64,000 bases of DNA from Micromonospora echinofusca (GTDB taxonomy: Bacteria; Actinomycetota; Actinomycetes; Mycobacteriales; Micromonosporaceae): contig NZ_LT607733.1 in assembly GCF_900091445.1 (NCBI RefSeq), forward strand, positions 6,475,001 to 6,539,000, in the 5' to 3' direction. The notes under the pieces were generated by a model. That model did not search any database. It was not told the origin of the DNA and saw only the letters and a program-made list of their open reading frames with translations. Made by a program: the position numbers and the translations under genes. This document shows, in pieces, positions 46,766 to 49,963 of the stretch. Position 1 is the stretch's first letter. Each line of letters opens with the position of its first letter.

Positions 46766-46906
46766 TCGTCCACAGGCTGGGGATTGCGTTTCCGCAGTTC
46801 ACGGCCCTGCGACGGAGAATTCCCCAGTCGTTGTCCACAGGTTGTGCACATCCTGCGCACATGCTCGTCCCCCGGCGTCCACAGGTTGTCCCGAGGCTCG
46901 TCCACC
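46766..46906. other. DnaA-box cluster upstream of dnaB
   Basis: TTGTCCACA (46831-46839) is perfect. TCGTCCACA (46766-46774), TTGTGCACA (46842-46850), GCGTCCACA (46875-46883) and TCGTCCACC (46898-46906) have one or two mismatches, all in one orientation. They fill the 390-bp gap before dnaB. Confidence 0.75.
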
Positions 46907-47050: not shown

Positions 47051-49963
47051 GTGTCGGTCACCGACGACATGCGGGCGGACTCGCGAGCGGGTGGGGGGCA
47101 GGCGTCCCCGCCGCCGCAGCGCGACGGCCAGTTCGACAAGACCCCGCCCCAGGACGTCGCCGCCGAGCAGTGCGTGCTCGGCGGCATGCTGCTGTCCAAG
47201 GACGCCATCGCCGACGTCGTCGAGATCCTGAAGACCAACGACTTCTACCGGCCGGTGCACGCCACCATCTTCGACACCATCCTGGAGATCTACGGCCGCG
47301 GCGAGCCGGCCGACTCCATCACCGTGGCGGCGGCCCTGGCCGACTCCGGCGATCTCGTACGCATCGGCGGCGCCCCCTACCTGCACACGCTGATCGCCAG
47401 CGTGCCCACCGCCGCGAACGCGGCGTACTACGCCCGGATCGTCAGCGAGCGGGCGGTCCTGCGGCGCCTCGTCGAGGCCGGGACCAAGATCGTGCAACTG
47501 GGCTACGGCACGAGCCAGGGCGGCAGCCGCGACGTCGACGACATCGTGGACCTCGCCCAGCAGGCGGTCTACGACGTCACGGAGCGCCGCGTCAGCGAGG
47601 ACTTCGCCGTACTCGCCGACATGCTCCAGCCGACGCTGGACGAGATCGAGGCGGTGGGCGCCCAGGGCGGCGTCATGACCGGCGTCCCCACCGGCTTCAC
47701 CGACCTGGACCGGCTGCTCAACGGCCTGCACGCGGGGCAGCTCGTGATCGTTGCCGGACGCCCCGGTTTGGGAAAGGCGCTCGCGCTGGACACCCCGCTT
47801 CCCACGCCGACAGGCTGGACAACGATGGGGGACGTCAAGATTGGCGACGAGTTGCTCAGCGCTGACGGCCTGCCGACGAAGGTCACCGCCGCGTTCGAGG
47901 TACGGCACGACCGACCGTGCTACGAGGTCGAGTTCTCCGACGGCTCGGTGATCGTTGCCGACGGCGAACACCTGTGGAAGACCACTACGCGGGCGAGTCG
48001 CCGCGCGGCCCCCGCCCGCCGGAGCAACCACTGGTCTCCCGAAGCCATCGAACGACTACACCGGGCCGCCGCACGCGCCACGCCCAGCGACGATGTCACG
48101 ATCGCGGAGTTGGCCGCCGTACTCGGCCCGGAGTTCACGCACACCGCTCAACGGGTGGCGCATGACATCGCTGACGAGTCGCCCGTCGTCATGCGCAGGC
48201 GCCCGCGTGTGCGCCCGGCCAGGGCGTATCCGGCCCGCCGCCTCTACCGCCAGTTGCTGGATCGCGTCGAGCAGTGGTCGGAGAGCCTGGCGGCGGCGGA
48301 GTTGCACGACGTGGTGACGACGGAGCAGATACGAGCGACCCTGCGTACGAACACGGCCGACCGACGACTCAATCATGCGGTCGAGAACGCCGCCGCACTC
48401 CGCCTTCCGGAACGCGAACTCCCGCTTGCGCCGTACACGCTCGGCGTCTGGCTCGGCGACGGCCACTCGGCGGAAGGAAGGGTCACCACCGTCGACCCGG
48501 AGATTCTGGCCGGAATCGAGTCCGACGGCTTCGAGGTCAGGCCTTCGGGGCCGATGGTCTACACCATTCGTCCGCCGCGGCTGCCCGCGATCCCCGACCG
48601 TGAATGCGTCGTCTGCCACGCGGTCTTCACGCCTCGTGGCCCGGCGGTCCACACCTGCGGCCAGTCGTGCGGGGGCCGGTCGAAGGGACTCGTCCCTGCG
48701 GCACGGCGCGAAGGTTGCGCCCACTGCGGGAGAGTGGACGCCAGCGCCTGGAACGCAAGTCGCAGGTGCCGTGACTGCCACAAGCGTTACGGCTCCTTCC
48801 GTGGTTACCTGCGGGCGGCCGGGGTGTTGGGCGACAAGCACATCCCCGCCGCGTACCTGCGGGCCTCGGAGGCGCAGCGGCGAGCGCTGCTGGCCGGGCT
48901 GCTCGACACCGACGGCACCGTGACCGTCAGCGGGAACGTGCAGTTCACCACGACGTCCCCCCGCCTCGCCGAGGACGTGCACGAGTTGGTCGTCAGTCTC
49001 GGATACCGCTGCTCGATCAGTCGGAAGGCCGTCGAGGGGCGCACCGCGGAAAGCTCGATCGCCTTCAACTTGAACTTCACGACGAGGGACGAAGTGTTCC
49101 ACCTGCCCCGCAAGCGGGAGGCGCACCGGCTGCGGCGCCGCAGCGAGAGCAACTCCCGGACGGACAGCCGTTTCATCGTCGACGTCCGACCTGTGCCGAG
49201 CGTGCCGGTCCGGTGCGTCACGGTGGACAATCCGGAGCACCTCTACCTAGCGGGTCGGGCGATGATCCCGACACACAACAGCACCGCGAGCATGGACTTC
49301 GCGCGCAACGCCGCGATTCGGGCAAATCAGGCGTCGGCCATCTTCTCGCTGGAGATGAGCAAGGTCGAGATCGTCATGCGGCTGCTGTCGGCCGAGGCGC
49401 GCGTGCCCCTGCACGTCCTGCGCAGCGGCCAGCTCTCCGACGACGACTGGACCAAGCTCGCCCGCTGCATGGGCGAGATCAGCGAGGCGCCGCTCTTCGT
49501 CGACGACACGCCGAGCATGAACCTGATGGAGATCCGGGCCAAGGCGCGCCGGCTCAAGCAGCGGCACGACCTCAAGCTGATCGTGGTCGACTATCTCCAG
49601 CTGATGACCTCTCCGAAGCGCACCGAGAGTCGGCAGCAGGAGGTCGCGGACCTCTCCCGTGGCCTCAAGCTGCTCGCCAAGGAGGTCGAGTGCCCGGTGA
49701 TCGCGGTGAGTCAGCTGAACCGTGGCCCGGAGCAGCGCACCGACAAGCGACCGCAGCTGTCCGACTTGCGTGAAAGTGGATCAATTGAGCAGGATGCCGA
49801 CGTTGTCATCCTGCTGCACCGTGACGACTACTACGACAAGGAGTCACCGCGGGCCGGGGAGGCGGATTTCATTGTTGCCAAGCACAGAAATGGTCCGACC
49901 GATACGGTGACGGTGGCCGCGCAACTCCACCTGTCGCGCTTCGTGGACATGGCAATCGTCTGA
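47051..49963 (+). CDS. dnaB: Replicative DNA helicase DnaB, interrupted by an intein
   Basis: DnaB is the hexameric replicative helicase. The 970-aa precursor comprises an N-extein of 242 aa, an intein of 501 aa and a C-extein of 227 aa; splicing would give a 469-aa DnaB of normal size. The N-domain includes PPQDVAAEQCVLGGMLLSKDAI, the RecA-like domain starts with GVPTGFTDLDRLLNGLHAGQ, and the Walker A motif GRPGLGK is split from its Ser by the intein. Later motifs SAIFSLEMSK, LIVVDYLQLM, LSDLRESGSIEQDADVV and the C-terminus are intact. The GTG at 47051 has GGAGGGGG upstream. A DnaA-box cluster precedes the gene. Confidence 0.95.
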   Translation: MSVTDDMRADSRAGGGQASPPPQRDGQFDKTPPQDVAAEQCVLGGMLLSKDAIADVVEILKTNDFYRPVHATIFDTILEIYGRGEPADSITVAAALADSGDLVRIGGAPYLHTLIASVPTAANAAYYARIVSERAVLRRLVEAGTKIVQLGYGTSQGGSRDVDDIVDLAQQAVYDVTERRVSEDFAVLADMLQPTLDEIEAVGAQGGVMTGVPTGFTDLDRLLNGLHAGQLVIVAGRPGLGKALALDTPLPTPTGWTTMGDVKIGDELLSADGLPTKVTAAFEVRHDRPCYEVEFSDGSVIVADGEHLWKTTTRASRRAAPARRSNHWSPEAIERLHRAAARATPSDDVTIAELAAVLGPEFTHTAQRVAHDIADESPVVMRRRPRVRPARAYPARRLYRQLLDRVEQWSESLAAAELHDVVTTEQIRATLRTNTADRRLNHAVENAAALRLPERELPLAPYTLGVWLGDGHSAEGRVTTVDPEILAGIESDGFEVRPSGPMVYTIRPPRLPAIPDRECVVCHAVFTPRGPAVHTCGQSCGGRSKGLVPAARREGCAHCGRVDASAWNASRRCRDCHKRYGSFRGYLRAAGVLGDKHIPAAYLRASEAQRRALLAGLLDTDGTVTVSGNVQFTTTSPRLAEDVHELVVSLGYRCSISRKAVEGRTAESSIAFNLNFTTRDEVFHLPRKREAHRLRRRSESNSRTDSRFIVDVRPVPSVPVRCVTVDNPEHLYLAGRAMIPTHNSTASMDFARNAAIRANQASAIFSLEMSKVEIVMRLLSAEARVPLHVLRSGQLSDDDWTKLARCMGEISEAPLFVDDTPSMNLMEIRAKARRLKQRHDLKLIVVDYLQLMTSPKRTESRQQEVADLSRGLKLLAKEVECPVIAVSQLNRGPEQRTDKRPQLSDLRESGSIEQDADVVILLHRDDYYDKESPRAGEADFIVAKHRNGPTDTVTVAAQLHLSRFVDMAIV
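47777..49279 (+). other. Class 3-type intein with LAGLIDADG endonuclease domain, inserted in DnaB Walker A
   Basis: The 501-aa intein begins ALALDTPLPTPTGWTTMGD and ends in AMIPTHN before extein Ser. Residue 1 is Ala rather than Cys or Ser. The block-B Trp (in GEHLW), block-F Cys (in VRCVTVDNPEH) and block-G Thr (in PTHN) form the WCT triplet that defines class 3 inteins. A LAGLIDADG homing endonuclease follows, with LGVWLGDGHSAEG and LLAGLLDTDGTV blocks. Two Cys-rich modules between them (CVVCHAVF...CGQSC and CAHCGRV...CRDCHK) look like zinc ribbons. Insertion at GRPGLGK/S is a known DnaB intein site. Confidence 0.93.

Follow-up and report, generated by a model that had tools for sequence, protein, structure and literature searches.

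A class 3 intein was identified in the dnaB replicative helicase gene of Micromonospora echinofusca, within a stretch of 64,000 nucleotides (contig NZ_LT607733.1, positions 6,475,001 to 6,539,000) that is referred to as the window. It was concluded that the element is probably a mobile class 3 intein of DnaB site b, that it would home by means of its LAGLIDADG endonuclease, and that its two Cys4 modules most likely form a zinc-binding accessory cassette for DNA contacts and not a splicing switch.

The intein and its splicing domain

The dnaB frame ran from a GTG at 47051 to the stop codon at 49961-49963 and was unbroken across GLGK|ALAL...THN|STASMDF. The 501-residue open frame of the intein began with ALALDTP, ended with MIPTHN and was inserted between the Lys and Ser of Walker A (GRPGLGK / STASMDF), the position of allelic inteins at DnaB site b. 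An earlier note on this DNA had placed the intein at 47777-49279, splitting GRPGLGK/STASMDF of dnaB, and its coordinates, ends and residues were correct; the 469-residue DnaB that it expected was reproduced by computed excision. A search of its own genome returned a single copy, and the closest named relatives were found in Micromonospora. In a phmmer search of the PDB the intein matched the DnaB inteins 6rix (5e-41) and 6bs8 (1.3e-37) far beyond chance, and 7256 relatives were recorded at E<=1e-3 out of 7991 scored candidates.

Class 3 inteins are defined by a position 1 other than Ser, Thr or Cys and by Trp B:12, Cys F:4 and Thr G:5, the WCT triplet (PMC3196547). The window intein had Ala1, W67, C480 and T499 together with the Hint fold of such inteins, which upheld the class 3 assignment, the WCT triplet and the P-loop (Walker A) site given in the earlier note. 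Ala1, C48, W67 and C480 were identical in all 174 unique inteins of one comparison (window intein included), from which 11 of the 79 loci of one extraction and P0004 were left out. Because these residues are conserved and relatives have been studied, splicing would be expected to follow the class 3 route, in which Cys480 attacks the N-junction, followed by attack of the +1 Ser and Asn cyclisation. Since the insertion site is Walker A, it follows that an unspliced intein would block the helicase, as has been argued for Mycobacterium smegmatis DnaBi1 (PMC6195587).

Probable homing and co-moving flanks

Two LAGLIDADG motifs with their acidic residues (D228 and D379) and K354 were present, as in homing endonucleases, and PF14528 (LAGLIDADG_3) covered the second motif with 38.1 bits (cut-off 22.5). 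When four close relatives were compared in six combinations, the ratio of nonsynonymous to synonymous change (dN/dS) stayed below 1 in every region, with a maximum of 0.75. Such an endonuclease would cleave the Walker A codons of dnaB copies that lack the intein, and their repair on an intein-bearing template would insert the intein along with a few flanking codons.

The distribution of flanking codons was compared across the genus. A site-b intein of 269-509 residues was carried by 60 of 121 genomes; the remaining 61 had either an insert elsewhere in dnaB (14 genomes, 12 confirmed at site a and 2 unreadable) or a dnaB of intein-free length (47 genomes, 30 read and 17 judged by length alone). 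The junction hexamer AAGAGC (AAG|AGC) occurred in 58/60 bearers versus 2/44 empties (104 genomes compared). Bearers and empties differed mainly from about codon -6 to +11, where six-codon bins averaged 0.19-0.31 above shuffles, whereas outside this range the bins were at most 0.07 and single codons up to 0.22 above shuffles. As this background was flat away from the site, relatedness was controlled for. On a tree built without the site at least 28 changes of intein state were counted, and AAG|AGY went with the intein in 10.7 of 11 independent tree pairs on average (median p 0.001). Codons -1, 0 and +3 never differed between close intein-bearing alleles (15 pairs).

The extein nearest to that of the window, L168 (synonymous distance, dS, 0.13), had an intein at dS 0.23-0.42, whereas for the more distant extein L171 (dS 0.35) the intein dS was 0.20-0.31. 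Extein and intein identities were nonetheless correlated (Spearman 0.41, 1770 pairs), so descent also contributes. On these comparisons, gene conversion with short co-converted flanks would explain the joint pattern of flanks and inteins, and homing of the site-b intein is well supported. A related effect has been described for haloarchaeal MCM inteins, which carry along at least the last N-extein codon (PMC10643990).

Within one pair of inteins (L001 and L138) the synonymous distance was 0.25-0.27 over residues 1-178, 0.03-0.04 in both LAGLIDADG lobes and 0.10-0.19 in the modules. This sharp change along the sequence suggests recombination between inteins.

The Cys4 modules and their slot

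Eight of the 11 Cys of the intein (48, 277, 280, 294, 298, 314, 317, 331, 334, 412 and 480) were arranged as two Cys4 sets. In a predicted model the first LAGLIDADG lobe enclosed both modules, which followed the last strand of the lobe (261-265) and preceded its last helices (332-348) as well as block D (K354). The placement of Cys-rich modules between the LAGLIDADG blocks, proposed in the earlier note, was thus borne out and refined to the interior of the first lobe. The same note had called them an uncommon addition; a double-module profile matched 42/296 genomes sampled from the class at E<=1e-5 (window genome included; 36 near full length, 5 with the second module only, 1 with a stop), so in this intein family they are not uncommon.

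The content of the slot varied between relatives, as expected of an accessory domain. Among the 174 inteins it was occupied by both modules (mostly 89-97 residues), by module 2 alone (mostly 60-61), by a compact form (42-43 residues, Cys pairs 5-6 residues apart), by partial inserts or by a short insert or none. In the comparison with relatives that the earlier note had proposed as a check on conservation, both modules were present in some, and one module, the compact form or nothing was found in others. Counts of 0, 1, 2, 3 and 4 Cys pairs were recorded in 52, 11, 74, 1 and 74 of 212 unique inteins. Thus 200/212 had 0, 2 or 4 pairs, and 148/160 of those with any pair had complete sets, which indicates that Cys4 sites are kept whole. 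In either module dN/dS did not exceed 0.51 in the same six comparisons. The rows of sets A2 (33 module rows) and A3 (10 rows) were chosen by pattern, so that the invariant Cys of A2 are so by construction, and the module counts were taken from other sets. The modules most likely bind zinc.

In inteins hosted by FtsK the slot held an 81-residue helical unit, and HTH_23 was matched by 9/10 of the scanned units (best 9.9e-7). In a model of one such intein (predicted local distance difference test score, pLDDT, 89.4) three helices, spanning 279-318, occupied the corresponding place between strand and helix. One FtsK-hosted intein, assigned by motif (L028), had no helix-turn-helix unit in its slot.

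L071 and similar loci (L069-L079) were observed to be class 3 inteins of the same family in the FtsK P-loop, with a helix-turn-helix where the DnaB inteins have Cys modules. The host halves of L071 matched FtsK_SpoIIIE up to profile position 52 and resumed at 53.

Eighty viral loci were found among the matches listed, 22 of them without a readable slot; the remaining 58 contained CxxxH..CxxC (18), a related motif (2), three Cys pairs (1), another insert (2) or none (35). Terminase hosts were recognised by Pfam at L199, L190 and L036, and were of phage type in the two viral and one planctomycete host checked.

Three related class 3 inteins (L036, L045 and L046) were also observed in AMPRGSGK|T P-loops of one Planctomycetes chromosome; the host of L036 matched the gpA-type terminase nuclease domain.

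Association of the modules with the endonuclease

At least two Cys pairs were present in 142/176 inteins with both LAGLIDADG motifs versus 7/36 without (p=3.5e-12). In the genus set, whose members had been collected through DnaB rather than through the modules, the corresponding values were 36/46 and 2/14 (p=2.7e-5); both tests ignore shared ancestry. Mini-inteins with the same splicing core had no modules. As the Cys pairs mostly vanish with the LAGLIDADG motifs, the modules, on this comparative evidence, belong with the endonuclease and not with splicing. We proposed that they are most likely an exchangeable accessory DNA-binding cassette, which would extend the DNA contacts of the first lobe.

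Several points weigh against the proposed cassette. Large deletions take modules and LAGLIDADG motifs together and so inflate the association. Fewer than two Cys pairs were found in 34/176 inteins with both motifs, which shows that some lineages can do without the modules. As similarity to the window intein was the basis on which many of the 212 inteins were gathered, the proportions are not population frequencies, and motifs were called by regular expression, by which rows may be miscalled. Pfam gave weak zinc-ribbon-like matches to the modules, none above the cut-off for the window copy. No zinc-ribbon chain appeared among the 50 matches listed by Foldseek and by VIA, which is not evidence of absence.

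The earlier note had offered two roles for the module Cys, of which DNA recognition is retained here and modulation of splicing by metal or redox state is not. In M. smegmatis DnaBi1, peroxide inhibits splicing by way of a disulfide that involves the catalytic Cys, and zinc does so by binding to this same residue (PMC6195587, PMC7360933), and C48 and C480 are conserved in the intein family; both observations would favour modules that sense metal or redox state and couple DnaB activation to stress. However, chemistry of the DnaBi1 type requires the splicing domain only, the modules are mostly lost with the endonuclease, mini-inteins of the same core do without them, and FtsK-hosted relatives have a helix-turn-helix in their place, which together make such sensing improbable. 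Module-based control of splicing by zinc or redox state was rejected as a candidate mechanism in view of the loss of the modules together with the endonuclease. A redox switch may still reside within the splicing domain, where no modules would be needed, since C48 and C480 were identical in 174/174 inteins.

It is likewise quite unlikely that the endonuclease and modules have lost their function and are decaying. Part of the genus set does show decay, as 14/60 inteins lacked at least one LAGLIDADG motif by pattern and lengths ranged from 269 to 509 residues, but the window copy keeps both motifs, K354 and all eight Cys, dN/dS stays below 1 throughout and the flanking codons travel with the intein.

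Table 1. Coordinates of dnaB, its intein and the associated sites in the window.
Feature	Position	Strand	Remark
dnaB replicative helicase gene with intein; precursor of 970 residues, 469 after removal	47051..49963	+	TIGR00665, 518.7 bits (cut-off 385.25)
Last N-extein codon, AAG	47774..47776	+	part of the haplotype moving with the intein
Class 3 intein, 501 residues, in Walker A between GK and ST (DnaB site b)	47777..49279	+	
N-terminal splicing domain, residues 1-68 (Ala1, C48, His65, Trp67)	47777..47980	+	
Optional, largely helical insert (residues 78-178) that separates splicing block B from the endonuclease	48008..48310	+	truncated or absent in many relatives
First LAGLIDADG motif (block C, residues 219-229, Asp228)	48431..48463	+	
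Cys4 module 1, C277-x2-C280-x13-C294-x3-C298	48605..48670	+	
Cys4 module 2, C314-x2-C317-x13-C331-x2-C334	48716..48778	+	
Endonuclease block D, KHIP (residues 354-357)	48836..48847	+	
Second LAGLIDADG motif (block E, residues 371-380, Asp379)	48887..48916	+	
C-terminal splicing domain, blocks F and G (Cys480, Thr499, His500, Asn501)	49175..49279	+	
+1 Ser codon, AGC	49280..49282	+	part of the haplotype moving with the intein
Second DnaB intein site (site a, ESG|SIEQDAD, junction 49780/49781), empty in the window dnaB	49766..49816	+	codons A/T-ending in intein-free genus members

Comparison with known systems

Class 3 inteins at DnaB site b, their preference for P-loops and their links to phages have been described (PMC5050341), as have accessory domains that change target choice (PMC8966425) and resistant alleles that arise through amino-acid change (PMC10643990). 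In the accessible open-licence PMC literature, the subscription literature being mostly outside the search, no Cys4 or zinc cassette in a bacterial intein endonuclease, no slot shared by zinc and helix-turn-helix units and no codon recoding of empty sites were found.

The closest systems were M. smegmatis DnaBi1 (PDB 6BS8, 6OWN) and MchDnaB-1 (6RIX, 6RIY), which are of the same family and site, start with Ala1 and have the WCT triplet and C48. Both were 62-63% identical to the window intein over 125-127 aligned residues of the splicing domain, and DnaBi1 also lies in the DnaB P-loop with a +1 Ser (PMC6195587). The solved chains comprise 139-146 residues, that of DnaBi1 without an endonuclease, whereas the window intein keeps the endonuclease, the Cys4 modules and the insert at 78-178. 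The class 3 inteins of phage terminases and FtsK share the core and the P-loop placement with the window intein but reside in other host genes, and their slot contains a different metal-type motif or a helix-turn-helix, or is without an insert.

PI-SceI, the yeast VMA1 intein, is a class 1 intein. It resides in another host gene, and its accessory region (PMC8966425) is without a Cys4 module. Its DNA recognition region may be broadly similar in position to the 78-178 insert of the window intein. Archaeal VMA inteins (TliVMA, with a helix-turn-helix) likewise have an exchangeable unit on the endonuclease, which was shown there to alter target choice (PMC8966425). The archaeal accessory domain is located between the endonuclease and the C-terminal splicing part, a position not shared by that of PI-SceI and in which the modules of the window intein were not found; the unit of the window intein is of the Cys4 type and lies within the first LAGLIDADG lobe. 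The natural series of cassette swaps at one fixed slot bears on the proposal that inteins persist by gaining accessory domains (PMC8966425).

Yeast HO and WHO also combine an intein-derived endonuclease with a CxxC zinc-finger domain, and in HO residues of the zinc finger are essential for cleavage (PMC7282813). These eukaryotic proteins do not splice and have a C-terminal zinc finger, whereas the window intein has internal modules and intact exteins; neither the C-terminal finger nor the lack of exteins that mark the HO/WHO type was found in it. HO and WHO have been described as unique among known organisms in fusing an intein with a zinc finger (PMC7282813); provided that zinc is bound, the present family would contradict this with examples widespread in bacteria.

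The insert at residues 78-178 (48008-48310) was observed in a long or a short form in relatives, whichever the content of the slot.

A/T-ending codon patches in intein-free dnaB

In 30 intein-free dnaB genes of the genus the third-position G/C content (G/C3, five-codon means) was mostly 0.85-1.0, with lowest ordinary values of 0.75-0.77. It dipped to 0.42-0.61 at the P-loop, to 0.41-0.73 at the other intein site of DnaB, ESGSIEQDADVVIL, and to 0.59-0.66 at ADFIVAKHRN. Over 17 codons the G/C3 of bearers and empties was 0.77 versus 0.50 at site b and 0.78 versus 0.59 at site a (L181 and L182, with stops in the frame read, were excluded from the site-a counts). Bearers and empties with an identity of at least 95% outside the site were matched one to one; at site b the bearer was higher in 17, lower in 0 and tied in 1, and at site a it was higher in 16/18 and lower in 1/18 matched pairs. 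On independent tree pairs a 17-codon G/C3 above 0.6 went with the intein in 8.0 of 11 and against it in 0.1 (averages; median p 0.008).

The survey was extended to the class, where 124 of 128 dnaB stretches, hand-picked from a sample of 148 genomes, were read; the selection excluded fragments, a few single families and all but three members of the low-GC family f27. The G/C3 deficit was 0.00, 0.01 and 0.01 in the intein-poor families f20, f19 and f28 (11, 9 and 10 empties) and 0.21, 0.21 and 0.45 in the intein-rich f18, f2 and the genus (6, 4 and 42 empties). With a first filter (background >=0.8 and >=2 empties per family) the deficit followed intein frequency at site b (Spearman 0.69, p=0.0096, 13 families) and at site a (0.76, p=0.001, 15 families). 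When the genus was removed, the correlation at site a held under three filters (0.76, 0.49 and 0.77; p=0.0016, 0.020 and 0.0005). At site b it held under one (0.61, p=0.036, 12 families) and was lost under two looser ones (0.37, p=0.11, 20 families; 0.37, p=0.19, 14 families). Cross-family support for synonymous recoding was thus robust at site a and weak at site b, and the failure at site b lowers the standing of recoding as an explanation.

As a hypothesis, we proposed that synonymous variants of the target, poorly cut by the endonuclease, were selected for or survived and so gave rise to the patches, with drift back to G/C after invasion. If true, sites at which essential genes have come under pressure from homing endonucleases could be recognised from sequence alone, and this would be a case of synonymous-site selection with a clear agent. 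The wider reading, in which class 3 inteins of bacteria and phages exchange zinc ribbons and helix-turn-helix units in a plug-in slot, homing drives synonymous recoding, and A/T scars mark present and past sites, is tentative and was considered somewhat doubtful as a whole.

The patch may instead have arisen without homing: it could be an element of the DNA or mRNA, a product of mutation, or an effect on codons in conserved helicase motifs that is relaxed when the intein splits the motif; this was judged to fall only a little short of an even chance. Mutation caused by repeated breakage, or a constraint of an unrelated kind, may also account for the patch. Besides the loss of the site-b correlation, several observations speak for such origins and against recoding. 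The ADFIVAKHRN patch has no intein among 386 occurrences of the motif (duplicates included), intein-bearing alleles of f18 also carry the patch (0.19), and recently invaded alleles retain part of it. Deficits of 0.22, 0.17 and 0.15 were found in f22, f9 (one genome each) and f36 (four, low background), in which no intein was seen, and f15 and f30, with inteins at frequencies of 0.43 and 0.50, had deficits of only 0.03 and 0.02 (4 and 2 empties). At the FtsK P-loop, 28 empties had a G/C3 of 0.89 (background 0.98) versus 0.81 in 13 bearers (2 duplicates), the opposite of dnaB; an intein was present in 2/30 FtsK loci examined in the genus.

The same non-homing origins are opposed by the lack of a patch in f20, f19 and f28, and by the correlation of the deficit with intein frequency, which was present at site a under all filters applied and at site b under the first. 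Codon diversity within the dnaB patch was raised and not lowered (1.18 versus 0.62 bits, empties), which makes a conserved DNA element less likely. The RuvB P-loop of the genus had no patch (0.91 versus a background of 0.85, 30 loci), and a general P-loop codon effect was ruled out by this control.

The codons of ADFIVAKHRN form a third narrow A/T-ending patch in intein-free dnaB of the genus, which is a candidate for a lost or unseen intein site.

Other features of the window

Scans of the window with Rfam and for tRNA gave no matches. The window contained 29 DnaA-box-like sites (TTRTCCACA, at most one mismatch) against 5.9 expected. Fourteen of them were clustered at 301-756, which is most likely the origin of replication (oriC) and would place dnaB about 46 kb from it, in agreement with the origin-proximal locus described in the earlier note. 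Three further sites were located upstream of dnaB (46766, 46831 and 46842; span 46766-46850), perhaps reflecting control of dnaB by DnaA.

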